The notes beneath the pieces are model-generated. The model was given only the letters and a program-made list of their open reading frames with translations. It ran no database searches and was not told the origin of the DNA. Positions 2,468-16,897 of a stretch of 22,000 nucleotides of DNA are shown here, one piece after another; positions within the stretch are counted from its first letter, which is position 1, and every line of letters starts with the position of its first letter. A program made the translations under genes and the position numbers. This stretch comes from a virus: positions 1 through 22,000 of the IMG/VR virus record IMGVR_UViG_3300031566_006737; one strand, given 5' to 3'.

Positions 2468-3969
2468 GAAATATTGAAGAGCTGCGCATACCGCCCCATT
2501 CGCCAGAAGCCGAGCTAGCCGTCCTGCAAGCGATGTTTATAGATCCCGTCGGATCCATTGGAAAGGCGCAGGGAAAAAAACTGCGGCCGCAAATGTTTTA
2601 TGACGCCCGCCATAAAATGCTCTGCGATAGCCTGTATGAAATGGCGAAAGACGGCCGCGGGATGGATGCCTTAACGATTACGGAATGGCTGAAAGACCGC
2701 AACGAAACAGAACGCATCGGCTATGATGTGCTTGCTTCGATTATGCAGAGCAACAGCCTGGCCGAAAACGTGGGCCCTTATTCTGAGATTGTCATTGAAA
2801 AATATCTGCGGCGGAAGGTCATTGAGATTTCAATAAATCTGATGGATGAGGCTTATGCCGGAGAAAAAACCGGTCAGGAGCTTGTGCGGGATATTCCGAG
2901 GTTGCTGGCCCCGATCATGTCCACCGGTGGCTGTCAGAAGACTAACAAGGAGATACTGGATGCCTGGTATGACCGAATGGTGGCCATTAAAAAAGGGGAG
3001 ATAACCAACGGCCTTCCGCTGCCATGGCCGGCGCTCGATGAGTTAATGTGCGGTCTTGAGCCCGGTTTGATTATCGTCGGAGCAGAAAAAAGCGGCGGCA
3101 AGACGACCTTCGAGTTGAATTTATGCGATCACCTTGCCAGAAACGGCTGCCCAATCGGCCGGGCCGGTCTGGATATGAGTGTGGAGTCACTGCTTTGCCG
3201 CTCGGTGGTCCGCGAGGCCCGCATATCGTTGCCGCGGCTTAAACATGGTCATGCAAAATGGAATCAGATGGCAACGGTCAAGGAGTGCAAGAACCTGATT
3301 GCAACATGGCCTTATTACATCATTGAAAACGGCACCGTGTCTGGAATTTGCCAAGAGGCCCGCATGTTGAAAATCAAGCACGACATTCAGCTGCTAACAG
3401 TCGATTTCATGCAGCTGGTCGTCACGGACGACGGGCGCATCGACAGCAACATGAATATGCTTATGGGAGTGGTGACGCGGACATTCAAAGCCCTGGCATT
3501 TGAGCTTGATATACCTGTAATTTTGTTGAGTCAATTCAGCCGCGCCATAGCCCGGCCGAATGAAAAAAGACGCCGGCCGGTCCTCACGGATCTGCGGGAT
3601 TCCGGCAACATTGAGCAGAATGCCACGCAGGTTATATTGCTCTCCAAGGCGCTCCCTGAAGATTTCCCCGCGATTGCATGGGATGAAAACGGAGAGGAAA
3701 CGGAGTGGCTGACGCTCCCGCCGGAGGCTGAAAAGAAATATTACCGGCCGGTCATAGCGGATCTTGCCAAAAACCAAAACGGTGAAACCGGAGAGATTCC
3801 CCTGGTGCTGGCTGCTAGCTATTTCAGGCTGGACGAAGCGGGAACGGGCTATAAAACGATGGCGGCAGACCTACTCCGGTACGAGCGGGAAACGATTGAT
3901 GAAGAGGCCCAGAGCAGCATACCCGGTGAGCGCGTCTGCGACGGGGATGATGATTTCGATGTGGAGTAG
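2464..3969 (+). CDS. dnaB: replicative DNA helicase, DnaB family
   Basis: A 501-residue protein with full DnaB architecture. The N-terminal helical domain is at residues 8-150 (PPHSPEAELAVLQAMF). The RecA-like motor follows, with Walker A GAEKSGGKTT at 206-215, Walker B LLTVDF at 310-315, the QFSRA motif near 357-361, and the LRDSGNIEQNA arginine-finger region near 377-387. The late AKNQNGETGEIPL motif is near 435-447. Walker A has GAEKSGGKT in place of the common GRPSMGKT but keeps the Lys and Thr. It unwinds DNA at the phage fork as a hexamer. The start overlaps the initiator stop by 4 bases, after AAAGGAG. Repeat arrays lie directly downstream. Confidence 0.93.
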   Translation: MRNIEELRIPPHSPEAELAVLQAMFIDPVGSIGKAQGKKLRPQMFYDARHKMLCDSLYEMAKDGRGMDALTITEWLKDRNETERIGYDVLASIMQSNSLAENVGPYSEIVIEKYLRRKVIEISINLMDEAYAGEKTGQELVRDIPRLLAPIMSTGGCQKTNKEILDAWYDRMVAIKKGEITNGLPLPWPALDELMCGLEPGLIIVGAEKSGGKTTFELNLCDHLARNGCPIGRAGLDMSVESLLCRSVVREARISLPRLKHGHAKWNQMATVKECKNLIATWPYYIIENGTVSGICQEARMLKIKHDIQLLTVDFMQLVVTDDGRIDSNMNMLMGVVTRTFKALAFELDIPVILLSQFSRAIARPNEKRRRPVLTDLRDSGNIEQNATQVILLSKALPEDFPAIAWDENGEETEWLTLPPEAEKKYYRPVIADLAKNQNGETGEIPLVLAASYFRLDEAGTGYKTMAADLLRYERETIDEEAQSSIPGERVCDGDDDFDVE

Positions 3970-4000
3970 AACGATCCACAATGAGCCTGAGCGTTTAAAC

Positions 4001-4072
4001 GGGATTTACGGGATTTACGGGATTTACGGGATTTACGGGATTTACGGGATTTACGGGATTTACGGGATTTAC
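4001..4072. repeat. 9-base tandem array GGGATTTAC x 8
   Basis: Eight perfect head-to-tail copies of GGGATTTAC begin 31 bases after the helicase stop codon. The array passes directly into the 11-base array without a spacer. In one frame it would read as Gly-Ile-Tyr repeats, but no gene uses that frame. Confidence 0.97.
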
Positions 4073-4200
4073 GGAATTTAGACGGAATTTAGACGGAATT
4101 TAGACGGAATTTAGACGGAATTTAGACGGAATTTAGACGGAATTTAGACGGAATTTAGACGGAATTTAGACGGAATTTAGACGGAATTTAGACGGAATTT
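4073..4200. repeat. 11-base tandem array GGAATTTAGAC x 11 plus partial
   Basis: Eleven perfect copies of GGAATTTAGAC (4073-4193) are followed by a partial copy GGAATTT that runs into ATTAGAAGGAG. The unit is related to the adjacent 9-base unit (GG-G/A-ATTTA-C) but has a 2-base insertion. The 11-base length puts copies on nearly the same face of the helix. It lies between the helicase gene and the next small gene. Together with the 9-base array it accounts for most of the 279-base gap and is a candidate replication origin or partition-like site. Confidence 0.97.
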
Positions 4201-4248
4201 ATTAGAAGGAGTTGATTTAACCCGTCCGAGCCGTCCGGGAAAGGATAA

Positions 4249-4461
4249 ATGCAATACTACTGGATAAATAAAGCGATGGAGAACGGCGGCGTTATGACGA
4301 TTACCCGCCGGCGCCGCAAGGTCAAAGCCACCATGTACTGGAAACATGGGAAAAAAGTCCGCGGCCCGGAGAGCCACACGATCCCGGACGCACTTGCGGC
4401 GCTCGACCAGGCGCTCGGTGACGACGCGGCCGATGAAATGATCGAAGGGGGCGGTGTATGA
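4249..4461 (+). CDS. small basic protein of unknown function
   Basis: A 70-residue product preceded by GGGAAAGGATAA, which supports ATG 4249; a shorter start at 4294 (MTITRRRRK) is possible. Residues 15-38 are strongly basic (TRRRRKVKATMYWKHGKK) and the C-terminal third is acidic. No family was recognised. A basic N-terminal patch beside the repeat arrays would suit a nucleic-acid-binding role, but this is only a guess. It overlaps the next gene by 4 bases (ATGA). Confidence 0.6.
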   Translation: MQYYWINKAMENGGVMTITRRRRKVKATMYWKHGKKVRGPESHTIPDALAALDQALGDDAADEMIEGGGV

Positions 4462-4682
4462 AAATTGGCGATGTGTTTATGATCCAGTTCTGCGCTGAAT
4501 TCGGAAGTTTCCGGGTTTTGCCGCTGCGGACCTGCGTAGACCTGGCCAAAAATGCAATGGATACTGGGGAACCGCACAACTGGGTCATTGTGGGTTATGC
4601 ACACGATGAGGGTGATGCCCTGGCAAAAATGAAAGGCATGAGAAAGCCCCAAATCGAGCGCAAACAAGATGAGGGAAGTTAA
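4458..4682 (+). CDS. small protein of unknown function
   Basis: A 74-residue product starting MKIGDVFMIQF, coupled to the preceding gene by an ATGA overlap, with GAAGGGGGCGG upstream as ribosome binding site. It has mixed composition and no membrane segment. The N-terminal part looks like a short beta-rich fold (FGSFRVLPLRTCVDLAKNA) and the tail is basic. No family was recognised. Confidence 0.65.
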   Translation: MKIGDVFMIQFCAEFGSFRVLPLRTCVDLAKNAMDTGEPHNWVIVGYAHDEGDALAKMKGMRKPQIERKQDEGS

Positions 4683-4827
4683 GATAGGTCAGACGCCGGA
4701 GGAACGCTTGAAACAGCTGGAAGCGGCCTATATCGAGCTTTGCCACGATATGGGAATGCTCCGCGCCATCCTGGTTAGGGTACGGGAAGAGAACGCCAAA
4801 GAAACGGAAAAAGACAATGCCACCTAA
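4669..4827 (+). CDS. very small helical protein between two packaging-cluster genes
   Basis: A 52-residue reading frame beginning MREVKIGQTPEERLKQLE and ending in TAA at 4825-4827. It starts 14 bases before the upstream stop and ends 11 bases inside the terminase ATPase gene, so it fits the tight overlapping pattern exactly. It fills what would otherwise be a 134-base gap. The product is mostly helical and charged, with an amphipathic heptad-like stretch (LKQLEAAYIELCHDMGMLRAI). Its position just upstream of the terminase ATPase is where a small terminase subunit would sit, but it is too short for a normal one. Function unknown. Confidence 0.55.
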   Translation: MREVKIGQTPEERLKQLEAAYIELCHDMGMLRAILVRVREENAKETEKDNAT

Positions 4828-5797
4828 ACCGCAAACTCATCCGGTGATCAGAACGCCGCGTGTGGCCGATTTCTGGCGCGCGCCGGATGGATCAATACGG
4901 GAAAAAGAGGTTGTCAGAAAGCTATATGAACAGGCGTGCCAGAGCCGCGATGCCGCCATAATGCAAGAACAGCGGGATCCTATCCGCTATGGCTGGGAAC
5001 CGCCGATCTGGAAGGTCTGCGATGCGCTGCTGGGTCTGCCGCTCTATGATTTGGCTTTTGCAGAAGAGATCGAGGCGCGCTTCGGGTGGGTGTGGGAAGA
5101 GTGGAGCGAAGCCATGCGCCTGAAGCTGCTGCATACATCAACCCGGCTCAAGGTACTGCTTATATCCGGCCCGAACCGTTCCGGCAAAACGGAATATGCG
5201 GCGAAACGCACCAATCAGATAATGAATGACTTTCCCGGCGAGATTGCCTGGTGCTATGCGCAGAACAATGACAACTCCATTGAAATCATGCAGCCGGCGC
5301 TCTATCGGCATTTGCCGGCGGAGATCCGCACCGGCAGCGACATTAAGAGCAAGACCACCTACATTAAATATTCTCAACACAATGGATTTACAGATAACCG
5401 CTACGTGCTGCCGAATGCCAGCCTGGTTTCACTGCGGAACTATTCACAGAAAGAGGAAACGCTGGAAGGACCAGCCCTTAAATGGGTATGGGGCGATGAG
5501 CTGATACCGCCTAATTTCCAAACGACGCTGGAGGGCCGCATTGGCGACCGCGACGGCTGGATGGTGGACACCTTCACGCCGATCAAAGGATGGAGCGCCA
5601 CGGTAAATATGTTTATGTCCGCGTCGGAAATAGCCAAGTCATGTATTGCCTATCTGCTGCCGCTGGACACGCTCGGCCCGGATGAGATTCGCGCCTATGG
5701 TTTTCATAGCGCAGAGGAACGCGCGGCTTGCTGGGCTGACGATCCGCGCCGTACCCGGCCGGAAGACGTGCATTGCTGGTTAGAGGCGGCCGAATGA
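4817..5797 (+). CDS. terminase large subunit, ATPase part
   Basis: A 326-residue protein carrying the packaging motor ATPase. Walker A GPNRSGKT is at 118-125, Walker B with catalytic acid ALKWVWGDE at 220-228, and a coupling motif TFTPIKGWS at 252-260. It powers DNA translocation into the procapsid at the portal. After the coupling motif the usual terminase continuation is absent. About 60 residues of other sequence follow (ending RPEDVHCWLEAAE), then a stop. The missing continuation and the nuclease domain are found in the gene at 7361-8506. Usual large terminases have about 450-650 residues. The start overlaps the small upstream gene by 11 bases. Confidence 0.85.
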   Translation: MPPKPQTHPVIRTPRVADFWRAPDGSIREKEVVRKLYEQACQSRDAAIMQEQRDPIRYGWEPPIWKVCDALLGLPLYDLAFAEEIEARFGWVWEEWSEAMRLKLLHTSTRLKVLLISGPNRSGKTEYAAKRTNQIMNDFPGEIAWCYAQNNDNSIEIMQPALYRHLPAEIRTGSDIKSKTTYIKYSQHNGFTDNRYVLPNASLVSLRNYSQKEETLEGPALKWVWGDELIPPNFQTTLEGRIGDRDGWMVDTFTPIKGWSATVNMFMSASEIAKSCIAYLLPLDTLGPDEIRAYGFHSAEERAACWADDPRRTRPEDVHCWLEAAE

Positions 5798-5818
5798 AAA
5801 ACAAAAAAGGAGAAAAAA

Positions 5819-6358
5819 ATGAGAAAAGTAACGCTCGAATCATTAGTTGAGATACTCACGGAAACCGCCCTCAGAGCCCGCGATTTAGAATGCGCGGAAG
5901 CGGAACTTCAGAAGAAGATTGGGGCTTTGAAGAAGGTCAATTCGGACATAATGGCTGATGTGCTGGGGAGTGAAGTTGAACTTAAGCAGCAGACGGAAAA
6001 AGCTGATGTGCTGGGGAGTGAACTGGCGGATTGCCGCCAGGAAATCAACAGACTCAAGAGTATCTGCCAGGAAATTCCCGACCTTAAGAATCAACTAAGC
6101 TGTGCAAAACGCAGGATTGCGGATGCGCCCAGGCTGCCCGCGCTCACGGACAATATCAACAGCGGTCTTGAAAGGGACAACGCGGTCTTAAAAACCCGCG
6201 CTGACGAATGGAGAAGGGAATATGCAGAACAGGAGCGTTTAAATAAAAAGCTGCGCCGCGACCTAGAAGCCGAGAAGCTCAACATCAGAGGGCTGAAGGA
6301 AACCCTTAAATCGCTGCGCATTAAAAACACTCTGCTAACGAAAAAGATGGTTAAATAG
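5819..6358 (+). CDS. coiled-coil protein of unknown function
   Basis: A 179-residue protein with an excellent ribosome binding site (AAAAAAGGAGAAAAAA). Nearly its whole length is predicted coiled coil by heptad pattern (ELQKKIGALKKVNSDI, ERDNAVLKTRADEWRREYAE), broken by a proline-containing hinge near residue 103-110. The heptapeptide ADVLGSE occurs twice about 17 residues apart, and the DNA there (GCTGATGTGCTGGGGAGTGA) is duplicated exactly. It is the first of three genes lying between the two halves of the terminase. No family was recognised; a structural or scaffolding-like role is possible. Confidence 0.7.
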   Translation: MRKVTLESLVEILTETALRARDLECAEAELQKKIGALKKVNSDIMADVLGSEVELKQQTEKADVLGSELADCRQEINRLKSICQEIPDLKNQLSCAKRRIADAPRLPALTDNINSGLERDNAVLKTRADEWRREYAEQERLNKKLRRDLEAEKLNIRGLKETLKSLRIKNTLLTKKMVK

Positions 6359-6380
6359 AAAACCATAAAAAAGGAGGGAA

Positions 6381-7016
6381 ATGAAAAACCATAAATATTT
6401 TTCATCTGCGCTGCGTGAACTGCTTGCCGAAATCAAAATCACCCAGCGGGAATTTTCCAAGAGAATCGGGGTGGAGCCCGCCATGCTGTCGAAACAGCTG
6501 TCCGGCAGACGGACTTCACCTAAAACACTGCTGCAGGCTTGCGATCCCAAAAACCATGAACAGCGCTCTCGCGGGGTTGACTTGGCAGTGGCGGCTCTGA
6601 AGGATTATCGCAAGGAGCTGGGATATACGAAACAAGACATTAAGGTAATTCCCATTGACCTTGAAAGGTGTGCGCCGGCGTCACCAATACGGGAGAAAAC
6701 GGTAGGGAATGTAAAAATTGTGAACACTTGGAAGAGGTGCGCCAACGGCACCAAGGCTATATTGTACCACTCGCCCTCATGGTGCCCCGGCGATACAGGA
6801 GAAAACGGCAGGGAATGTAAAAGTTGTGACTTCTTCGATGAGGCGATAGCGTACTTTCGGGATTGTGATAACAAGTTTGTTAAGCTGGACAAAGGGCCGT
6901 ATGGTATCTGCAGGATAAACCCGCCGGTAGTTGGTCCGGCTCCTTGGCCGGAAATCGGTTGGGGGGATTGGTGCGGTAAATATAAACCACGAAAGGGAAG
7001 AGAAAATGAAGAATAA
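6381..7016 (+). CDS. XRE-type HTH protein with C-terminal cysteine cluster
   Basis: A 211-residue protein after AAGGAGGGAA. Residues 7-55 form a Cro/CI-like helix-turn-helix (ITQREFSKRIGVEPAMLSKQ). The C-terminal region has a zinc-cluster layout: CKSCDFF, then GICRINPPVVGPAPWPEIG, then DWCGKY. The C-x2-C ... GxCRxNPP ... WPxV/I ... WCG pattern recurs in small phage zinc proteins as I recall them, so this may be a fusion of a repressor-like HTH to such a module. An internal DNA duplication is out of frame (separate entry). It sits between the two terminase genes. Regulation or DNA binding is likely, target unknown. Confidence 0.75.
   Translation: MKNHKYFSSALRELLAEIKITQREFSKRIGVEPAMLSKQLSGRRTSPKTLLQACDPKNHEQRSRGVDLAVAALKDYRKELGYTKQDIKVIPIDLERCAPASPIREKTVGNVKIVNTWKRCANGTKAILYHSPSWCPGDTGENGRECKSCDFFDEAIAYFRDCDNKFVKLDKGPYGICRINPPVVGPAPWPEIGWGDWCGKYKPRKGRENEE
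6692..6843. repeat. internal duplication, 106-base offset, in two frames
   Basis: The 32 bases from GGAGAAAACGGTAGGGAATG at 6692 recur at 6798 with two differences. Similarity decays to about 6737 and 6843. The offset of 106 is not a multiple of three. The copy at 6798 is read in frame as GENGRECKSC, the zinc knuckle of the HTH protein. The copy at 6692 would read GENGRECKNCEHLEE only in a different frame, and in the gene's own frame it gives REKTVGNVKIVNTW. Confidence 0.85.
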
Positions 7017-7359
7017 TGAAGCCCAGGAAAAAGAGATCATCCAGCCGTTTAAAGGGATATGGCTGGAATCGGAACAGCACGCGGTAGCGCTGGCTATGCT
7101 GCAGGAAGATGTTAAGGAACTGCTCTTAACATGGAGCCGTGTTTTACCGCAGCTTGATAAGCTGGCAACGCGGGTTCTAATGGACGACCCTGAACGGGCA
7201 GTGCAAATCGAGGTCCGGCGCATGGCGGGCTTTTCATTAACGAATAAAATGGCCCGCGAAATAAATCAAGAGCGCAGGAAGATATTAGCCGTTATGTGCC
7301 AAATGCAAGACGCCCTAAACTCTATTAACTTTGATAATGTGACTGCCACTGAAGATTGA
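7006..7359 (+). CDS. small helical protein of unknown function
   Basis: The start was set at ATG 7006 (MKNNEAQEKEIIQPF), which has AAAGGGAAGAG upstream and overlaps the preceding gene by 11 bases. A longer in-frame start at 6931 lies within the upstream zinc module and is less likely. The 117-residue product is almost entirely helical and charged, without cysteine clusters or membrane segments. It is followed after one base by the terminase nuclease gene, so the two are probably coupled. No family was recognised. A terminase-associated adaptor is one possibility, but only position supports it. Confidence 0.7.
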   Translation: MKNNEAQEKEIIQPFKGIWLESEQHAVALAMLQEDVKELLLTWSRVLPQLDKLATRVLMDDPERAVQIEVRRMAGFSLTNKMAREINQERRKILAVMCQMQDALNSINFDNVTATED

Positions 7360-7360
7360 A

Positions 7361-8506
7361 ATGATTAGTTTCCAGCAGTGGAAGGAGCAGAGGCTTTGGG
7401 AAAGGCCGGAGCGCATGAGCCAGCCGGCCCCGGAGCCTGGCCGTATGTTCGACCAGGCGCCGCGGGTGGTCCGGTGCTATGCGGACCACCGCGGAGTTGT
7501 GTTCTTCCAGCCGATGGACAACCCTTTCGGTAGTCCTGCAGCCGTGTATAACATATGGAAGACCAACACGGTCCGGGTGATTAGAGAGCGCCTGTATGGA
7601 TGGGCAACGAAGACCTTTAGCGGGCAGTTTCCCGGATTCAGCCGGGAGCTGCATGTATTACCCGAAAGCCGGATCCCGACCGTCGGCACCAACTATCAGA
7701 TGATCGACCCGACGCCTGGCGCGCGGCCGTTCTTCTTCATCTATCTGCGCATTTGCGGTGAAACAGTTTATGTGCTGTCGGATTGGCCGGCACAGGATCC
7801 GCCGGGCGCAGCAGACGTTCCTTTCGGTAAGTGGGCCGAGCCCAGCGGCAAGAAGGGCGGCATCAATGACGGCGATTTGGCTGATGCGGCCGATACTATC
7901 AAGTGGGGTGTCCAGAAATACGTGCAGGAATTCGCCAGGCTTGAAGGCTGGGACTTTGAAGAGGCCCGAACCTTCCGTGAACAAGAGGCGGAAAATGATG
8001 AGGCGGAAGAGAGGGATTATATGTATCCGCATCTTCACAAGGTAGCTTTGATCGAGGCGCGCAATCGCGGATATGACGAGGCCGATGCCGCGCTTCCGGG
8101 ATCCAATGCCAAACTCAAAATAGAGCAGCGGGGCATAGATAGCCGCGCCGCCTCTTCGCCGCGTATCGAGAACGACCGCACTTCATCCTTGTATGAAATG
8201 CTGAAGGACTACGGTTTAGAAATGTGCCTGGCACCCGGCATCGCCATCGACGAGCGCGTGCAAATGACCAACACCCTGTTTGATTACGAAGAGAACGCAG
8301 AAGGCGAAATTATTGATCCGCCTAAACTGTATATCTCTGAGAAGGCGAAAAATCTGATATTTGCGCTTGAATACTGGACCGGTGCCGACGGGCCGAAAGG
8401 GGCAACCAAAGACCCCATTGATTGCCTGTGCTATGCCGCTTGCAAGATCATTTCCGGCGAGTGGTATGATATAACCGAGGAAGTAACGAAACAGGAGGAA
8501 GAATAG
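7361..8506 (+). CDS. terminase large subunit, nuclease part
   Basis: A 381-residue protein that carries the parts of a large terminase missing from the gene at 4817-5797. Residues 34-100 match the end of the ATPase domain and linker (MDNPFG, IRERLYGWATKTFSGQFPGF). An RNase H-like nuclease follows with acidic residues in the expected order: D116 in YQMIDPT, D260 in RGIDSRAA and D354 in KDPIDCLCYAA. It would cut concatemers to start and end packaging. The triad looks intact, so the protein is probably active. There is no Walker A. The first ATG has a weak ribosome binding site; ATG 7415 after CCGGAG is an alternative start. Confidence 0.82.
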   Translation: MISFQQWKEQRLWERPERMSQPAPEPGRMFDQAPRVVRCYADHRGVVFFQPMDNPFGSPAAVYNIWKTNTVRVIRERLYGWATKTFSGQFPGFSRELHVLPESRIPTVGTNYQMIDPTPGARPFFFIYLRICGETVYVLSDWPAQDPPGAADVPFGKWAEPSGKKGGINDGDLADAADTIKWGVQKYVQEFARLEGWDFEEARTFREQEAENDEAEERDYMYPHLHKVALIEARNRGYDEADAALPGSNAKLKIEQRGIDSRAASSPRIENDRTSSLYEMLKDYGLEMCLAPGIAIDERVQMTNTLFDYEENAEGEIIDPPKLYISEKAKNLIFALEYWTGADGPKGATKDPIDCLCYAACKIISGEWYDITEEVTKQEEE

Positions 8507-8733
8507 TGACTCGTAAACGTATGAACAACCGCTATTGGCGTGACTGGTATTCCAACTGGCATCCGAAACTGATTTTCTTCAAGATTTGGTGCGGAGGAAT
8601 GAACTGGGAATGGCACATCTTCTTCATGGAACGTGTGGATAGGCGTTGTTATTTCCGCGTTTGTCCAGACGGGTCTTACCGCTTGGATTACTGTGAATAT
8701 AAACGACGTGAAAAACCCAAGGAGGAAGGATAG
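8506..8733 (+). CDS. small aromatic-rich protein of unknown function
   Basis: A 75-residue product starting at GTG 8506. AGGAGG at 8493-8498 fits this start far better than the in-frame ATG at 8521, and GTG overlaps the terminase stop by one base (TAGTG). It is unusually rich in Trp, Tyr, Phe and Arg (YWRDWYSNWHPKLIFFKIWCGG). It ends in KPKEEG, encoded by the boundary repeat shared with other genes in this array. It is the first member of that array. No family was recognised. Confidence 0.65.
   Translation: MTRKRMNNRYWRDWYSNWHPKLIFFKIWCGGMNWEWHIFFMERVDRRCYFRVCPDGSYRLDYCEYKRREKPKEEG
8716..8733 (+). promoter_or_regulatory. boundary repeat / ribosome binding module, copy 1
   Basis: CCCAAGGAGGAAGGATAG directly precedes ATG 8734. 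It encodes the last residues PKEEG and the stop codon of the upstream gene and supplies the Shine-Dalgarno of the downstream gene. A more diverged relative, AACAGGAGGAAGAATAG, precedes GTG 8506. Confidence 0.85.
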
Positions 8734-8979: not shown

Positions 8980-9212
8980 TGTCTAAAAAACCCGATCACC
9001 TACAGCAGTACCCTACTGCGGATGAGCAAGAGCAATCAGATTGTGCTAAACGCACGATGGTTGGGAGGGGGGAACGCAAGGCACCACAATACGGGCGATT
9101 CTGGCCGGGAATGAACAGTAGGGACGAAACCGATCCGGTAACGATGAAACCTGTTGGCCGTATGTTGTCCGAAGGATTTGAAATGATGGACGACAACGAT
9201 GTTGCCGACTAA
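8979..9212 (+). CDS. small polar protein of unknown function (cassette array)
   Basis: A 77-residue product from ATG 8979, preceded by GGTGGGAGGATTGATTG. The TTG at 8976 is one codon upstream and less likely. The protein is polar, with many Asp, Arg and Met residues (MKPVGRMLSEGFEMMDDND), and looks partly disordered. No domain was recognised. It ends at 9212, immediately before a copy of the boundary repeat. Confidence 0.55.
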   Translation: MSKKPDHLQQYPTADEQEQSDCAKRTMVGRGERKAPQYGRFWPGMNSRDETDPVTMKPVGRMLSEGFEMMDDNDVAD

Positions 9213-9226
9213 CCCAAGGAGGAATG
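9213..9226 (+). promoter_or_regulatory. boundary repeat / ribosome binding module, copy 2
   Basis: CCCAAGGAGGAATG lies between the stop at 9210-9212 and ATG 9227. It matches the shared core over its first 12 bases. Spacing from GGAGG to ATG 9227 is 4 bases, the same as in the ATG-proximal copies at 9415 and 11366, which decides the start codon. Confidence 0.75.
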
Positions 9227-9499
9227 ATGAACTGTTTAAAAAAGAACGGCCATCTTGACGGATCACATTTCACAATATGGGTATGCATCATACTTGCATT
9301 ATCTGTTGTTCCAATAATTCTGCTGTTTAGAAGCATTGGAGATGTTATCCGAAAAGGGCCGAATCATTTTGCCGACCCGTGGAAAGAAGCACTGGATTGT
9401 TTTAAAGATATATACCCAAGGAGGAAGGATGTACGAACACTATTTAAAAACTATAAAACCAAGCGCCATTGCCAGACAAATTCGCCACCGTTTATATAA
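9227..9499 (+). CDS. small membrane protein, probably with a recombined 3' end
   Basis: A 90-residue frame starting at ATG 9227. Residues about 15-34 form one hydrophobic membrane segment (FTIWVCIILALSVVPIILLF), followed by a soluble tail. From residue about 64 the frame runs through a boundary repeat and 71 bases into the downstream methyltransferase gene in another frame, ending in a basic sequence unlike the rest. This suggests that the original end was lost when the methyltransferase cassette joined here. Function unknown; small one-pass proteins are common in phage accessory regions. Confidence 0.55.
   Translation: MNCLKKNGHLDGSHFTIWVCIILALSVVPIILLFRSIGDVIRKGPNHFADPWKEALDCFKDIYPRRKDVRTLFKNYKTKRHCQTNSPPFI
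9415..9428 (+). promoter_or_regulatory. boundary repeat / ribosome binding module, copy 3
   Basis: An exact CCCAAGGAGGAAGG is followed directly by ATG 9429 of the methyltransferase. Unlike most copies it lies inside the reading frame of the upstream gene, where it encodes YPRRKD rather than a PKEEG ending. Confidence 0.85.
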
Positions 9500-10073
9500 A
9501 ACACTAATAGGAGGTTCGACCAAAGCGTTGGAGTTTGGAATAGGATATGGGTATTTTCGCGACTACTGTTTCAATGAAGGAATAGATTATACCGGAGTTG
9601 ATTTTTCCAAGGGATTAGCAGACTTGGCAGACATAGATACGATCATAACGCCAATACCAGAGGGGATGTCGCTTGTTCCTTATGGATATGATCTTATATT
9701 TGCAGAACACTTCATTGAACACATGGATGGACATGACTCCGTGATGAAGTTTCTTATTGGATGCAGGAAAAGATTAAATAATGGAGGAAGGATTATATTG
9801 CTCTACCCTAATATGAATAAACACTTTTGGCATGATCCAACTCATCAATATCCCACCAACAAAAAGCGAATTGAAAGGTGTTTAATTGATGCGGGATTTC
9901 ATGTTATGGAAAGCGATGATTATGCTCATTGCCTTGTTGGTGTTTTTGATACCATTCTGATTAAACTAATTGGATATTTAATGCCCGCAAATTTGAGGGT
10001 ATCATTACATTTTTGCGTACATTCATACACGAAAGGATTAGCGCAGGAAGCCACCAAGGTAGGAGAAAAATGA
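9429..10073 (+). CDS. class I SAM-dependent methyltransferase
   Basis: A 214-residue protein. ATG 9429 is chosen over the longer in-frame ORF at 9336 because it follows the boundary repeat exactly. SAM-binding motif I is ALEFGIGYGYFRDY, with an acidic end to strand 2 (YTGVDFS). A YDLIFAEHFIEHM motif IV region and GGRIILLYPN follow, as in the Methyltransf_11/23 families. No DNA-methyltransferase catalytic motif (DPPY or PCQ) is present, so the substrate is more likely a small molecule, glycan or protein. The gene is visibly more AT-rich than its neighbours, suggesting separate acquisition. Its stop (TGA 10071-10073) overlaps the next start. Confidence 0.8.
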   Translation: MYEHYLKTIKPSAIARQIRHRLYKTLIGGSTKALEFGIGYGYFRDYCFNEGIDYTGVDFSKGLADLADIDTIITPIPEGMSLVPYGYDLIFAEHFIEHMDGHDSVMKFLIGCRKRLNNGGRIILLYPNMNKHFWHDPTHQYPTNKKRIERCLIDAGFHVMESDDYAHCLVGVFDTILIKLIGYLMPANLRVSLHFCVHSYTKGLAQEATKVGEK

Positions 10074-11074
10074 ATGAGCTACATCTATTTGCAGGAGCAG
10101 GAGGAGGGATCTTGGGTGGAATGCTGCTCGGACACACCACCGTTTGCGCTGTTGAAATCGAAGAGTATCCAAGAAAAGTCCTCCTCCAGCGGCAACGTGA
10201 CGGAATCCTCCCCAAATTCCCCATCTGGGACGATGTCACCACCTTCGACGGAAAACCATGGAGGGGAAAAGTTGATGTCGTGTGCGGAGGATTCCCCTGC
10301 CAGGACATTTCAGCCGCTGGCAAAGGTGCTGGCATCGAGGGCAAAAGAAGCGGGCTGTGGTCAGAGTTTGCAAGAATTATCGGTGAAGTACGACCGCGAT
10401 ACGCATTCGTGGAAAACTCACCAATGCTTGTGGGAAGAGGACTTGCCGTGGTCCTCGGTGACCTTGCCGAAATGGGGTATGATGCAAGGTGGTGTATTTT
10501 GGGAGCTGACGATATTGGAGCGCCCCATCGTAGAAAAAGAATATGGATCTTGGCCCTCGCCAACCTGCAACATGGTTTCGGGCGGCCCGAACCACAACAG
10601 CCCGCAGGTGATAGCCGGCAATCACGGGATCAATCTTCACGGCGCGGTTTTGAAGATATGGCCGACCGCATCTGCGCGGGATTGGAAGGACACGCCGGGC
10701 ATGAGCCAAACCGGCACCAACCCGGACGGCTCAACGCGGAACAGGACAGATCAACTGGCGCGCGCGGTTTATGCCGATGGTGGCAAAACGACCCCGCAGA
10801 AGTTTCCGACCCCGAATGCGCGGGATTGGAAGGGCAAGCCGGGACCGAATGCGAATCAACGCGAATCATCCCTGCCGCCGGTTGTGGGGGAGGATGTAAA
10901 GACCGTGGGCAAACTCAACCCAGATTGGGTAGAGTGGCTTATGGGGTGGCCCATCGGGTGGACCGACTTAAAGCCATTGGCAATGGGCAGGTTTCAATCG
11001 TGGCTGCAACAGCATGGGAACTATTAGCAGAAAACGACCGGGCTGAGTTGATCGGCGAACAAACTCAAGATTAA
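10070..11074 (+). CDS. dcm: DNA (cytosine-5) methyltransferase
   Basis: A 334-residue protein with the C5-methyltransferase motifs in order: motif I LHLFAGAGGGILGG (4-17), motif IV GGFPCQDIS (73-81, catalytic Cys77), motif VI ENSP (115-118), motif VIII GAPHRRKRIWILA (150-162), and late motifs IX-X RVDRLKAIGNGQV (296-308). The target recognition region (about 165-285) is divergent and holds two copies of CAGLEG. It methylates cytosine in a sequence that cannot be predicted here. No restriction partner is visible, so it is an orphan enzyme, probably protecting phage DNA. The start is ATG 10070, with AGGTAGGAGAAAA upstream. A 317-codon ORF lies inside it in the +1 frame. Motif VI reads ENSP in place of the usual ENV. 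Confidence 0.9.
   Translation: MNELHLFAGAGGGILGGMLLGHTTVCAVEIEEYPRKVLLQRQRDGILPKFPIWDDVTTFDGKPWRGKVDVVCGGFPCQDISAAGKGAGIEGKRSGLWSEFARIIGEVRPRYAFVENSPMLVGRGLAVVLGDLAEMGYDARWCILGADDIGAPHRRKRIWILALANLQHGFGRPEPQQPAGDSRQSRDQSSRRGFEDMADRICAGLEGHAGHEPNRHQPGRLNAEQDRSTGARGLCRWWQNDPAEVSDPECAGLEGQAGTECESTRIIPAAGCGGGCKDRGQTQPRLGRVAYGVAHRVDRLKAIGNGQVSIVAATAWELLAENDRAELIGEQTQD
10074..11027 (+). CDS. overprinted +1-frame ORF inside the cytosine methyltransferase
   Basis: A 317-codon frame starting 4 bases after the methyltransferase ATG (ATGAATG), so both can use the same ribosome binding site. The product is Trp- and Ser-rich, with SWKTHQCLWEEDLPWSSVTL, two ARDWK motifs (SARDWKDTPG, NARDWKGKPG) and LNPDWVEWLMGWPIGWTDL near the C-terminus. 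I recall proteins with ARDWKD and WVEWLMGWPIGWT motifs in many phage genomes, next to or overlapping such methyltransferases. A stop-free frame this long in about 55% GC DNA is unlikely by chance. It could still be a shadow kept open by methyltransferase codon use. Function unknown. Confidence 0.5.
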   Translation: MSYIYLQEQEEGSWVECCSDTPPFALLKSKSIQEKSSSSGNVTESSPNSPSGTMSPPSTENHGGEKLMSCAEDSPARTFQPLAKVLASRAKEAGCGQSLQELSVKYDRDTHSWKTHQCLWEEDLPWSSVTLPKWGMMQGGVFWELTILERPIVEKEYGSWPSPTCNMVSGGPNHNSPQVIAGNHGINLHGAVLKIWPTASARDWKDTPGMSQTGTNPDGSTRNRTDQLARAVYADGGKTTPQKFPTPNARDWKGKPGPNANQRESSLPPVVGEDVKTVGKLNPDWVEWLMGWPIGWTDLKPLAMGRFQSWLQQHGNY

Positions 11075-11341: not shown

Positions 11342-11365
11342 ACCAATAACAAATTAAAGGATCAA

Positions 11366-11379
11366 CCCAAGGAGGAAGG
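11366..11379 (+). promoter_or_regulatory. boundary repeat / ribosome binding module, copy 5
   Basis: An exact CCCAAGGAGGAAGG is followed directly by ATG 11380. Here it is fully intergenic: the upstream gene stopped at 11341, so the sequence is kept without any protein-coding reason in the upstream frame. Confidence 0.85.
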
Positions 11380-11748
11380 ATGAGACTTAAAGCATACTCA
11401 GTGACAGAGTGCCATGAAAACCAAGGCTTTATCTGTTGGGCTGAAAATCCGAAGGAGGCAAAAAAGCTCGGTATAGGCTCAGATGAAACCTATGGGGCCG
11501 ACTACATTGATCTGCGATGCCGCAGAGCACCAGAGGCGGATGAGATGTATTACGGCAAAGCAATCTGCGATTGGTACACCGAAGAAGGTCAGCGGATATA
11601 TTGGAAGCTCGGATGGTGGCTCGAAGACGGTCGCCAATGTCAGGGGTGCTACGACTGCTGGGAGTACGACAAGGTTCCAGAGTCGAGGCTAAACGATGAT
11701 GGGTTGTGTTCTGTTTGTGCCAAGGAGCAACCCAAGGAGGAAGGATAG
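11380..11748 (+). CDS. phage protein with C-terminal zinc-binding-like cysteines
   Basis: A 122-residue protein beginning MRLKAYSVTECHENQGF. It contains CRRAPEAD, resembling the CRRAPWAD signature that I recall from hypothetical proteins of many tailed phages. A cysteine cluster follows (CQGCYDCWEYD, about 16 residues, then LCSVC), a likely zinc site. The protein ends EQPKEEG-stop, encoded by the next boundary repeat. Function is unknown; the N-terminal part may form a small beta fold (ICWAENPKEAKKLGIG). Tryptophan content is high. Confidence 0.72.
   Translation: MRLKAYSVTECHENQGFICWAENPKEAKKLGIGSDETYGADYIDLRCRRAPEADEMYYGKAICDWYTEEGQRIYWKLGWWLEDGRQCQGCYDCWEYDKVPESRLNDDGLCSVCAKEQPKEEG
11731..11748 (+). 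promoter_or_regulatory. boundary repeat / ribosome binding module, copy 6
   Basis: CCCAAGGAGGAAGGATAG precedes ATG 11749 and is identical over all 18 bases to copy 1 at 8716, about 3 kb away. It again encodes PKEEG-stop for the gene upstream. Confidence 0.88.
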
Positions 11749-12624: not shown

Positions 12625-12915
12625 ATGCCGATCCGCAAAGAAATGAAAGCTCGCTACCCCTCGGATTGGAAGCTCAGAAGTTTCTTTGTCCGGTTCATCC
12701 GGGCCGGGGGTGTCTGTGAGGTCTGCGGGGCCGTACATGGGGAGCCGCACCCAGTAACAGGGTCGAAGGTGGTCTTAACGTGCGCCCATTGGTGGATCCA
12801 CGAACCCGAAGCCTCGGATCTGCTTAATCTCAAGGCCGCGTGTCAACTATGCCACAACAGGCACGATGCGCCCATGCGAGCGGCCGGCCGGAAAAAACGG
12901 CGATGCCCGCTATAA
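12625..12915 (+). CDS. HNH endonuclease
   Basis: A 96-residue protein with a structural zinc site made by CEVCGA and CQLCHNRHD. The HNH core is LTCAHWWIHEPEASDLLNLKAACQLCH with the sequence given in two overlapping parts: LTCAHWWIH supplies the first histidine, LLNLKAAC the asparagine, and CHNRHD the last histidines. Phage HNH proteins of this size often nick DNA and assist terminase during packaging. Here the gene is about 4 kb from the terminase nuclease and directly before the head genes. The ribosome binding site is weak; the start lies two bases after the upstream stop, suggesting coupling. Confidence 0.83.
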   Translation: MPIRKEMKARYPSDWKLRSFFVRFIRAGGVCEVCGAVHGEPHPVTGSKVVLTCAHWWIHEPEASDLLNLKAACQLCHNRHDAPMRAAGRKKRRCPL

Positions 12916-14142: not shown

Positions 14143-15147
14143 ATGCCAGGAATGTTTGAAGCGGACCAAGCCGTACCTGTTAAGGATTACGGTGAAGAGT
14201 TGTACGTGGTGGAAAGCCATGAAGTACCTAAACTGCGCCTTATGGCCGCAGGCGATCCCATGACTCAAATGCTGCAGGATTGGGAAGCAGAAACCCGCGG
14301 CCGCATTGCCTTTACCGGTGTTGCGGACGGTGCGGACGTGACTGAATACAACAAGCAGGCTCAGTTGCCGTTGGTTGCCTATGGCACCCACCAGCGCGAA
14401 TCCTGGAAGGTAACGAAGGTTGCGGGTAAAACCCCGACGGCCGGCGTGAAGAACCAGGTCAAGCACCAGCGCAAGGAGGCGCTTAAGCGCTTGCGTGAAG
14501 CGATGGAGCGCTCAATCGGCGGAACCCAGGAAATGCAACGCGGTACTGCCGCGGTGGGTTACAACCATCGTGGAGCGTTTGCGTGGATCAATGATGCCCT
14601 GCAATCCGTCCAGACGGTTGATGACAGTCTGAAGACCGCGGCGGGTTGTATCCATACCGGAACCCTGGCGGCTCTCACCGCCGCGGTTTTCGAGGGTATG
14701 GTCCAGGCGGCCGCAACCCAGGTTGGCGCCGCGGTGAATCTGAAAGGATTTGCCGGCCCAGCACTGAAATCCCACATGAGCGATTGGACTCAGAAGCTCA
14801 CTGTAACCAGCACCGAAAATGCGTTGCAGAGTTTCAATATCGCTGCTTCCGAAAAGCGCCTCTTGAAGATGGTCAACACCTTCGAGTTTGACGCTGGAAC
14901 GGTTGAAGTCATGCCGGACTATAATCTGGCGTGTGATCCCACTACAGGCGCAGACACGGTTTACACTCCGTTATCCGGCCTGTTCTTGGAAATGAGCCGG
15001 TGGACCAAGCGCTACATGCAGCAAGTAACCGAGTTCGAGCTGCCGGATCTAGGCGGCGGCCCGCGAGGCTATGCCGACGTGATGTGGATGCTAAAGTGCG
15101 GTCTGCCAGCCGGGCAGTTAGTGGCTTATATCAGCGCCGCAGCGTAA
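14143..15147 (+). CDS. major capsid protein (HK97-fold, DUF5309/SU10-like)
   Basis: A 334-residue protein behind AAATAGGAGATTAAA. The pattern resembles the DUF5309 / SU10-type capsid family: an N-terminal arm, then YNKQAQLPLVAYGTHQRESW, a long helix NQVKHQRKEALKRLREAMER (spine-helix-like) with GAFAWIND after it, and a C-terminal domain with DYNLACDP and LEMSRWTKRYMQQ. It would form the icosahedral shell. The size fits the family. The scaffold-like gene upstream and the beta-rich protein downstream support the call. The family is recognised from pattern memory and could not be searched. Confidence 0.75.
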   Translation: MPGMFEADQAVPVKDYGEELYVVESHEVPKLRLMAAGDPMTQMLQDWEAETRGRIAFTGVADGADVTEYNKQAQLPLVAYGTHQRESWKVTKVAGKTPTAGVKNQVKHQRKEALKRLREAMERSIGGTQEMQRGTAAVGYNHRGAFAWINDALQSVQTVDDSLKTAAGCIHTGTLAALTAAVFEGMVQAAATQVGAAVNLKGFAGPALKSHMSDWTQKLTVTSTENALQSFNIAASEKRLLKMVNTFEFDAGTVEVMPDYNLACDPTTGADTVYTPLSGLFLEMSRWTKRYMQQVTEFELPDLGGGPRGYADVMWMLKCGLPAGQLVAYISAAA

Positions 15148-15218
15148 ACCTTTCGGTTGATGGGTCGGCCGAGTGGCCGGCCCTGACCGATTTTAAAAAA
15201 CCTAAATAGGAGAGTAAA

Positions 15219-15731
15219 ATGCACAAAAAACTGATAATCGGAATGCTGGCGGTGCTGGCATTGGTGGTTTGCACGGTAGATGCGGCCACAACGGTGAACC
15301 CGCAACGGCTCGGAATTGAAGAAATGGCGTCCCACATGGGGGCGAATTTCCTGGTTGAAATCTCGTATGCGGACTTTACGCAAACGGCAACCAACAACAC
15401 CGAGGAATTTACTTGGGACATTGCAGCCGGGCAGGGCTTCACGCTGCTGTACGCCGAGGTGGTGCAGGAATTCGTCGGATCAACAACCAACGGTACCGAT
15501 AACATGGCGGTGATTGTTGGCGATGATGCGGATACCGACCAATTCCTTGTGTCTATGAAAATGGCGACCGAAGAAACGGAGGTGGTCGGTAAATTCGGCA
15601 CAGGCACGGCAGACGGCGTGTTTTATGAAGCCGCGGATACCATTGACTTCCTTTTCACGCCAAATCTCGACCGCGCACCAGCCGCATTTTCCGCAGGGAA
15701 AGTACGCTTTTGGTGTTTTGTCGTTGAGTAG
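15219..15731 (+). CDS. secreted beta-rich virion-module protein
   Basis: A 170-residue protein behind AAATAGGAGAGTAAA, a site close to that of the capsid gene. Residues 1-22 look like a Sec signal peptide: a basic start (HKK), a hydrophobic core (LIIGMLAVLALVVC) and a likely cleavage after VDA. The mature part is beta-rich, acidic and low in lysine, as in cement or decoration proteins. It is followed at once by a strong terminator, so capsid and this protein may be the most highly expressed genes. A signal peptide is unexpected for an intracellularly assembled phage protein. Confidence 0.65.
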   Translation: MHKKLIIGMLAVLALVVCTVDAATTVNPQRLGIEEMASHMGANFLVEISYADFTQTATNNTEEFTWDIAAGQGFTLLYAEVVQEFVGSTTNGTDNMAVIVGDDADTDQFLVSMKMATEETEVVGKFGTGTADGVFYEAADTIDFLFTPNLDRAPAAFSAGKVRFWCFVVE

Positions 15732-15751
15732 TTGACGGTTGCACACAATAG

Positions 15752-15779
15752 AACAAGGGGCAACGGTGCCCCTTGTTTT
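15752..15779 (+). terminator. rho-independent terminator after the capsid genes
   Basis: A perfect 11-bp stem (AACAAGGGGCA paired with TGCCCCTTGTT) encloses a 4-base loop ACGG and runs into TTTT. It lies 20 bases after the stop at 15731. It would end or attenuate transcription from the scaffold/capsid genes before the connector and portal genes. Confidence 0.92.
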
Positions 15780-15791
15780 CCCGTACCCACC

Positions 15792-16163
15792 ATGAATGTA
15801 AAACCCTATACCCTCCAGCAGTTGCGCGCCGCTGAAAAGCGGAACATAGAAGCGGCCAAGCTGCGCGGCACCAGCGCGAAAATAGGCAAAACCGGCCGCA
15901 TGACGCAGCAGATTGACGAAGTGGCCTGGTTTAATGCCGTAAATCAAAACGGCGGCGTGGATGCAAGCGGCAAAACCATCATGGATTGCCCTGAGTATCG
16001 CCGTGACATGGCGAAGCGCCACCCATTTACTGTTGTGGCCGCAGAAGACGCCGGTTCCACCGTCGGACCTTATCTCGGCCAGGCCGCAGAAAATTTCAAA
16101 GCCATTTTCGGAGAGAAGAGCCATTTGGACGGCAAAGTAACTATTCATGCACCAAAGGAGTAA
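15792..16163 (+). CDS. small head-module protein of unknown function
   Basis: The first ATG after the terminator hairpin is 15792, giving 123 residues. The in-frame TTG at 15732 would have to be translated through the hairpin. No Shine-Dalgarno is visible before this ATG, unusual for this window. The N-terminal half is basic and helical (LQQLRAAEKRNIEAAKLRG) and the rest is polar. It sits between capsid and connector genes, so a head-completion role is possible. No family was recognised. Confidence 0.6.
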   Translation: MNVKPYTLQQLRAAEKRNIEAAKLRGTSAKIGKTGRMTQQIDEVAWFNAVNQNGGVDASGKTIMDCPEYRRDMAKRHPFTVVAAEDAGSTVGPYLGQAAENFKAIFGEKSHLDGKVTIHAPKE

Positions 16164-16166
16164 ACT

Positions 16167-16874
16167 ATGTCTTATCCCACTGTTCAGTTTGACAAGGTAT
16201 ATAAAGAGGTGCTACGCGCCACCGGCCGGCCGGAAACCCTTATTGCCTTACTAACCGCCGCCCAGCAGGAGAACATCGCGGAACTCATTAACGAGCAGCT
16301 GGCGGAATTCTTCGAGGAAGGCTTTTGGCCCGGCACCTATGAAACCGAGCAGCGCACCATTGACGCGACCGATAAATACATTCTCAAAGCGGCATCCGGG
16401 GAAACGGTCATTGGACGAATTGAGCCGGAAGAGTGCTTTTTCGCGGATGAACCCCAGCCGGGCAGCCTTAAGGATGTTTTGGGCCTTGTGGAAGACCGCG
16501 GCGACCGGATCGTGTGCTTTGATGAAGATTGCCCCGCGCAGCCGTGGATTCGCTTTCAGATCCCGCCGCCCCAGTTTACCCGCTCGGTTTATTCGGACGC
16601 CACCACCTATGCCCTTGCGCAGTTGACCTATGACGAAACAACGGGCGAATGCTACAAGTCGCTGCAGGCAGCGAACCTTGATCATGCTGTTACTGAAACG
16701 GCGTGGTGGGAGAAGGTAAACTTTCCGGCGTTGGCTGAAACCTACATAAAATGGTCCGCCAGCAGTGAATGGATGAGCATAGACGACGGAAAATATCAGC
16801 AGATGGAACGCGCGAACCGCGTGCTAGATCGCCTGGTTGACAAGCATTTGCCGCGTCTGCAGGTAGGCAGGTAA
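16167..16874 (+). CDS. probable head-tail connector / adaptor protein
   Basis: A 235-residue protein with AAAGGAG upstream. A helical N-terminal part (VYKEVLRATGRPETL, QQENIAELINEQLAEFFEE) is followed by a beta-rich insert. That insert contains a YDETTGECYKSLQAAN...WWEKV segment of the kind seen in phage neck and adaptor proteins. A final helical region follows (LVDKHLPRL). It lies directly upstream of the portal gene, which fits an adaptor that docks below the portal ring. No enzyme motif is visible. The call relies on pattern and position. Confidence 0.6.
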   Translation: MSYPTVQFDKVYKEVLRATGRPETLIALLTAAQQENIAELINEQLAEFFEEGFWPGTYETEQRTIDATDKYILKAASGETVIGRIEPEECFFADEPQPGSLKDVLGLVEDRGDRIVCFDEDCPAQPWIRFQIPPPQFTRSVYSDATTYALAQLTYDETTGECYKSLQAANLDHAVTETAWWEKVNFPALAETYIKWSASSEWMSIDDGKYQQMERANRVLDRLVDKHLPRLQVGR

Positions 16875-16897
16875 CTGAAGCATTATTGGAGCGTACT

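Follow-up and report, generated by a model that had tools for sequence, protein, structure and literature searches.

A phage large terminase gene divided between two open reading frames with three small genes between them

The large terminase subunit (TerL) is among the most conserved phage proteins and is a marker gene of tailed phages. How its ATPase core, lid and nuclease are coupled is among the main questions still open. The stretch of DNA analysed here, a 22-kb virus record from an uncultured tailed phage (IMG/VR IMGVR_UViG_3300031566_006737, positions 1 to 22,000; hereafter the window), carries a TerL that is divided between two open reading frames (ORFs), W1 for the N-terminal part with the ATPase core and W2 for the C-terminal part with the nuclease. 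Three further ORFs lie between them, and all five are on the plus strand. We consider it quite probable that this locus represents a genuine fission of a phage TerL gene, which would yield a two-chain TerL, and not an intron, an intein or an assembly error.

Insertional gene fissions have been described in T4-like phages, namely nrdA-a/nrdA-b of Aeh1 (with mobE), the T4 topoisomerase gene (with mobA) and 43A/43B of phages 44RR and 25; both the split NrdA of Aeh1 and the split gp43 of phage 25 function as enzymes (PMC2988022). As in the window, a conserved enzyme gene has become two ORFs in order, the products of which are thought, and in the case of NrdA and gp43 were shown, to reassemble. In the window, by contrast, it is the packaging motor that is divided, three non-endonuclease genes make up the insert, and the split recurs at the same site in another lineage. 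The TerL coding sequence is likewise interrupted by introns or inteins in fRuSau02 (PMC5618024), the Jug phages (PMC12363816), IBB_35 (PMC3322345) and Mic1 (PMC7156551), but these elements are self-splicing or were interpreted as restoring one chain, whereas no splicing element was found in the window. The herpesvirus TerL homologue UL15 is encoded by two exons around UL16 and UL17, which are joined by nuclear mRNA splicing (PMC3079670). There too, complete genes part a terminase coding sequence; however, the inner genes of UL15 are on the opposite strand, whereas those of the window are on the same strand and no splice signal was found. A partial literature search revealed no two-chain terminase, the phage TerL interruptions in it being introns and inteins.

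Family searches with W1 and W2 in Pfam, PHROGs and NCBIfam gave no TerL match, and the identification of both therefore rests on unsplit homologues and on the fold. The one good relative in the phage collection is the 551-residue protein WJE88171 of C75C1, which itself matches the PHROG_2 terminase large subunit (E 1.3e-15); W1 8-281 corresponds to its residues 8-250 and W2 37-358 to its residues 256-523. In a closer metagenomic relative, contig L035, one ORF aligns with W1 2-322 through its residues 82-387 (34% identity) and with W2 16-354 through its residues 391-706 (36% identity), so that only three residues separate the two matches. W1 matched a full-length TerL profile with E 2.4e-87. 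By these alignments, a single large terminase is divided into W1 and W2, in two chains instead of the canonical single chain. An earlier note on this DNA had described a TerL divided into ATPase and nuclease genes with three genes between, and the ORFs are as it described, each half being colinear with the unsplit homologues. The same family and domains occur in L035, L049, L050, L051 and L058 and, more distantly, in WJE88171, but there as one continuous gene with no insert.

The ATPase and the nuclease are not on one polypeptide, since the W1 and W2 ORFs are about 1.56 kb apart, both in the window and in the matching contig L002 (Table 1). W1 and W2 share the same reading frame. The successive spacings from W1 through the 179-, 211- and 117-residue genes to W2 are 21, 22, -11 and 1 nt, W2 thus starting 1 nt past the stop of the 117-residue gene. 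The good ribosome-binding sites (RBSs) that had been noted were found for the three inserted genes; that of W2 is weak.

Table 1. Features of the divided terminase locus (HTH, helix-turn-helix; ASCE, additional strand, catalytic glutamate)
Feature	Position in window	Strand	Evidence
W1, TerL N-terminal part, 326 residues, ASCE ATPase core	4817..5797	+	aligns with unsplit TerL of C75C1 and L035
Walker A, GPNRSGKT (W1 118-125)	5168..5191	+	sequence; G118, N120, R121 and K124 invariant among homologues
Walker B and catalytic Glu, WVWGDE (W1 223-228; Glu is E228)	5483..5500	+	W225, D227 and E228 invariant
Coupling motif TFTP (W1 252-255)	5570..5581	+	F253, T254 and P255 invariant
W1 tail, first half of variable loop	5660..5794	+	matches ...SRPENCEAWL of L035 and ...SRPEDCSAWLEEE of L051
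Inserted gene 1, 179-residue coiled-coil protein, good RBS	5819..6358	+	weak coiled-coil matches only
Inserted gene 2, 211 residues, HTH_3 N-terminus and Cys-rich C-terminus, strong RBS	6381..7016	+	HTH_3, E 1.7e-6
Inserted gene 3, 117 residues, probably helical	7006..7359	+	no useful family match, no phage match
W2, TerL C-terminal part, 381 residues: loop remainder, last ATPase strands, lid region, nuclease	7361..8506	+	aligns with unsplit TerL of C75C1 and L035
W2 head, second half of variable loop, predicted disordered alone	7361..7450	+	PAPEPGRMF matches PAPEGRRF of L051
Terminase RNase H-like nuclease domain (W2 84-371)	7610..8473	+	VIA-align to D6E TerL
Nuclease acidic residue D116	7706..7708	+	invariant in 46 homologues
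Nuclease acidic residue D260	8138..8140	+	invariant in 46 homologues
Nuclease acidic residue D354	8420..8422	+	invariant in 46 homologues; D351 invariant too

All three motifs by which the ASCE ATPase core of TerL is recognized lie within W1: the Walker A motif GPNRSGKT, the Walker B motif with WGDE and the coupling motif TFTP, all of which the earlier note had placed there. By its motifs, W1 is a complete ASCE ATPase core. W2 carries the NPF(G) strand from the end of the ATPase domain and the acidic nuclease residues D116, D260 and D354, and has no Walker A, again as had been noted. Its assignment as a terminase nuclease is borne out by the structural alignment of its predicted structure with the TerL of Geobacillus phage D6E (PDB 5OE8, 5OE9, 5OEA, 5OEB, 5OEE; PMC5727402), which gave the best structural match of the W2 nuclease (residues 233-417 of D6E TerL; VIA-align Z 18.6, root-mean-square deviation 2.6 over 171 residues). 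D6E TerL is a single chain that comprises the ATPase core, lid, linker and nuclease and carries a C-terminal arm; in W2, by contrast, the C-terminal motif seen in its own relatives is missing. In the W2 model the predicted local distance difference test (pLDDT) is below 50 for most of residues 1-30, residues 31-80 are moderately confident and the nuclease is confident from residue 84, which would be expected if the head of W2 needs W1.

The break lies in a loop that follows the coupling motif and precedes the NPF(G) motif. The length of this loop varies in the family, the stretch from one motif to the other being mostly 57 to 134 residues long. L035 and its near kin have the same long variable loop as the TerL of the window: it comprises 120-134 residues in L051, L053, L058 and L035 and 131 in the window (75 in the W1 tail and 56 in the W2 head), so that W1 and W2 together cover the single-gene homologues without loss. 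The motifs flanking the loop are kept on both sides, W1 ending in TRPEDVHCWLEAAE (in L051, SRPEDCSAWLEEE) and W2 having PAPEPGRMFDQAPRVVRC (in L051, PAPEGRRFEMMPRVLRC). The roughly 60 C-terminal residues of W1 that had previously been taken as unmatched in fact match the first half of this loop in the nearest unsplit TerLs. The split has left every conserved motif of the motor and nuclease core in place. In an ancestor TerL was a single gene; the break fell in the long, variable loop within its ATPase domain, where three small accessory genes now lie.

An AlphaFold model of the unsplit L035 protein (pLDDT 90.5) has an ATPase domain at about residues 46-381, which aligns with P74-26 TerL with Z 19.0. 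The equivalent of the break is at 309/313, between a helix (307-310) and a strand (324-332), and thus falls inside the ATPase domain; the proposal that the chain is cut there, just after the coupling motif, agrees with this model. In short-loop homologues a tight turn connects the two strands that flank the loop (AKLLDRALPVKQ in C75C1). Judged from secondary structure, the loop would cap a beta-hairpin, one of the paired strands remaining in W1 and the other in W2; if so, it is understandable that a cut at the loop is tolerated.

The split was observed repeatedly, with both parts complete and their motifs conserved. Contig L002, from another IMG/VR sample, contains the whole W1-W2 locus without a mismatch, its differences from the window being confined to a repeat at 4075-4092, and the 15.6-kb contig L003 contains the left junction. 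On the evidence of these two contigs an assembly chimera was rejected, and an assembly error is unlikely. Related loci were gathered with profiles of the N-half and the C-half, and both halves are in one frame in 187 of about 190 of them (98, 65 and 42 clusters at 95, 85 and 70% identity, respectively). The exceptions are contig ends, distant TerLs that matched one profile only, the window with its copies and contig L135. A scan of genome contigs gave a single related TerL, in L205 (a metagenome-assembled genome of Acidobacteriota), which is unsplit. In the trees of both halves the phage belongs to the same 13-member clade (support 99/100 and 99/97); horizontal mixing of halves from two TerLs is accordingly unsupported. 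The order TerL, scaffold, major capsid protein (MCP), accessory genes and portal is common to the window, L049, L050 and L054. As TerL is whole in the latter three, the insert most likely arose in the lineage of the window. The portal (14143-19108 region) follows the scaffold and MCP in these four loci, whereas in the other mapped relatives it stands directly after TerL.

TerL is broken at the same loop, with no inserted gene, in L135 (IMG/VR 3300033076_001413, 5005-6991). Its N part ends in ...APQSVPERFV at a stop at 5940, and past GGAGGGGAAG the C part begins in a different frame, at TTG 5951 or ATG 5981, and runs ...MKREFERVPRVLE; a Shine-Dalgarno-like GGAGGGG alone lies between stop and start. 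The nearest relatives of L135, L035 and L058 (support 99/97), are unsplit, which indicates that this break is independent of that in the window. Where the conserved P-[AE]-G-R motif would stand in the loop, L135 has the start region instead, a change that a single-base sequencing error would not produce. As it is known from one contig, this second break is supportive rather than proven.

How the two chains might act together can be outlined as follows. All five genes would be transcribed into one polycistronic late mRNA, in which translation of W2 would be coupled to that of the preceding 117-residue gene. W1 and W2 would then assemble noncovalently, one folded against the other, with the W1 sheet receiving its closing strand or strands and the lid from W2, and the heterodimer would replace one TerL subunit in the motor ring. 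We infer co-translation, association and motor activity in this sense, and W1 and W2 probably work as a two-chain motor. The break between core and lid, which is seen independently at the same loop in two lineages, reveals a site at which the chain tolerates a cut with no apparent loss, and a split TerL offers a ready two-component system for testing how force and signals pass between the parts. Since neither half reaches a TerL family in the databases named above, TerL searches and completeness tools may miss or miscount genomes with a split TerL.

Several observations weigh against the fission reading. The split is known from one phage species plus L135, and the L135 break rests on a single contig. 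W2 departs from its relatives at several near-invariant positions (R140S, E141D, R357C) and lacks the GGGHY/GGSY-type C-terminal end of most unsplit relatives, having an acidic tail instead (8430-8506), so that the function of one half may have been lost. The 22-kb record is also incomplete, the window, L002 and L003 all being fragments. An intact TerL might then be encoded elsewhere in the genome and the split gene be its decaying remnant. We regard this as unlikely. A TerL search of the window, L002 and L003 found the two halves only, and the full-length terminase that would have spoken against the division was not seen in these fragments. Both ORFs are intact with their catalytic residues kept, and the locus sits at the TerL position of its relatives, before the scaffold and MCP. 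GC content and GC content at third codon positions (GC3) of W1 and W2 equal those of MCP and portal (GC3 0.64 and 0.65 against 0.65 and 0.66), a composition of structural genes. The phage is on long branches in the TerL-N, TerL-C, portal and MCP trees alike; as portal and MCP are similarly divergent, TerL is not clearly decaying. An acceleration specific to TerL was rejected on the same grounds.

The inserted genes could be more than passengers, at least one of their products being a working part of the motor as a bridge, small terminase or regulator. Their place within the operon, the coiled coil, the HTH protein and the 1-nt coupling to W2 speak for such a role. As the three proteins have no useful homologues, the evidence speaks neither for nor against a bridge in particular. 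On the other hand, the related loci yielded no homologue of any of the three, L135 is split without any insert, and the composition of the three genes (GC3 0.53-0.57) is that of ordinary accessory genes such as those nearby downstream; a role in the motor therefore appears improbable. The 179-residue protein matched a terminase small subunit family only very weakly (E 0.073), which was not counted as evidence. The 211-residue protein had been described as an HTH/zinc protein, and both the HTH_3 domain and the zinc-like part are real, although the latter has no family match; its C-terminal part weakly resembles a 79-residue protein of L049 (E 0.003), and a search of viral contigs for relatives of the 211-residue protein gave L002 alone. 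A further view is that the motor is built on purpose with its power-stroke parts on different chains, the ATPase core on W1 and the lid with the nuclease on W2. As these would associate reversibly, nuclease-bearing chains might be exchanged or released from the ring between genome cutting and translocation, perhaps with an inserted protein as control subunit. To this we give little credence.

The insert might also be a self-splicing intron that carries three genes and is removed from the mRNA so that a single uninterrupted TerL results, as happens in Twort-like staphylococcal phages, Jug phages and Campylobacter phage IBB_35. Introns are known to occur in TerL genes (PMC5618024, PMC12363816, PMC3322345) and W1 and W2 share a reading frame, but we consider this very unlikely. 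Positions 4800-8600 gave no Rfam match at the gathering threshold and no group I, group II or other intron family up to E 5, and the non-coding gaps of 21, 22 and 1 nt are too small for a ribozyme core. None of the three inserted proteins matched an endonuclease family, so that by family searches the insert has no homing endonuclease. The W1 stop and the W2 ATG lie within the homologous loop, which is already at full length in the two products. The mRNA splicing considered in the earlier note was thus not borne out. A split intein whose halves would ligate the products after translation can be practically dismissed, even though TerL is often an intein target, as in Mic1 (PMC7156551) and apparently in ctRVW222, because the junction is the homologous TerL loop with about 4 residues at the W1 end and 15 at the W2 start unaccounted for, which are too few, and because W2 has no His-Asn end ahead of its TerL part.

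In addition to these results, no match of at least 8 nt between the two junctions was found that might represent an insertion scar, the repeats of the region being short and ordinary, and promoters and terminators were no more frequent in the interval than in shuffled sequence. The HTH/Cys-rich gene contains a 51-nt direct repeat at 6668-6843 (84%, 106 nt apart) which encodes TGENGRECK-CE/D in two frames and is identical in L002; its first copy is out of frame, which suggests duplication followed by compensating frameshifts. An exact 21-nt duplication (5954-5974 and 6002-6022) lies within the 179-residue coiled-coil gene. In L007, the TerL of Podoviridae sp. ctRVW222 (2869-4740) has an apparent intein just before the last nuclease motif.

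Further features were noticed outside the divided gene. A short tandem repeat (translated GIYGIYG...) at about 4000-4115 follows a DnaB-like helicase gene, and the aligned stretches of the window, L002 and L003 differ only at this repeat and at one base, position 9. Between TerL and the scaffold, 12625-12915 encodes a 96-residue protein whose paired Cys motifs and central His resemble, on visual inspection, those of an HNH endonuclease; it has no Pfam family match at E 0.01. A near-identical RBS block, AACCCAAGGAGGAA(G/T)GAT, precedes several small genes (8714-8731, 9211-9228 and about 11363-11380) and is perhaps a point of gene-cassette exchange. A C5 cytosine methylase gene at 10067-11074 (PF00145, E 1.6e-34) overlaps, on the same strand in another frame, a 317-residue ORF at 10074-11027 that has its own matches to 177 phage records (best 40% identity, E 3e-42). 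The corresponding match in L207 and L208 likewise lies outside the frame of the annotated methylase, and both frames are open in seven loci, which looks like conserved dual coding.

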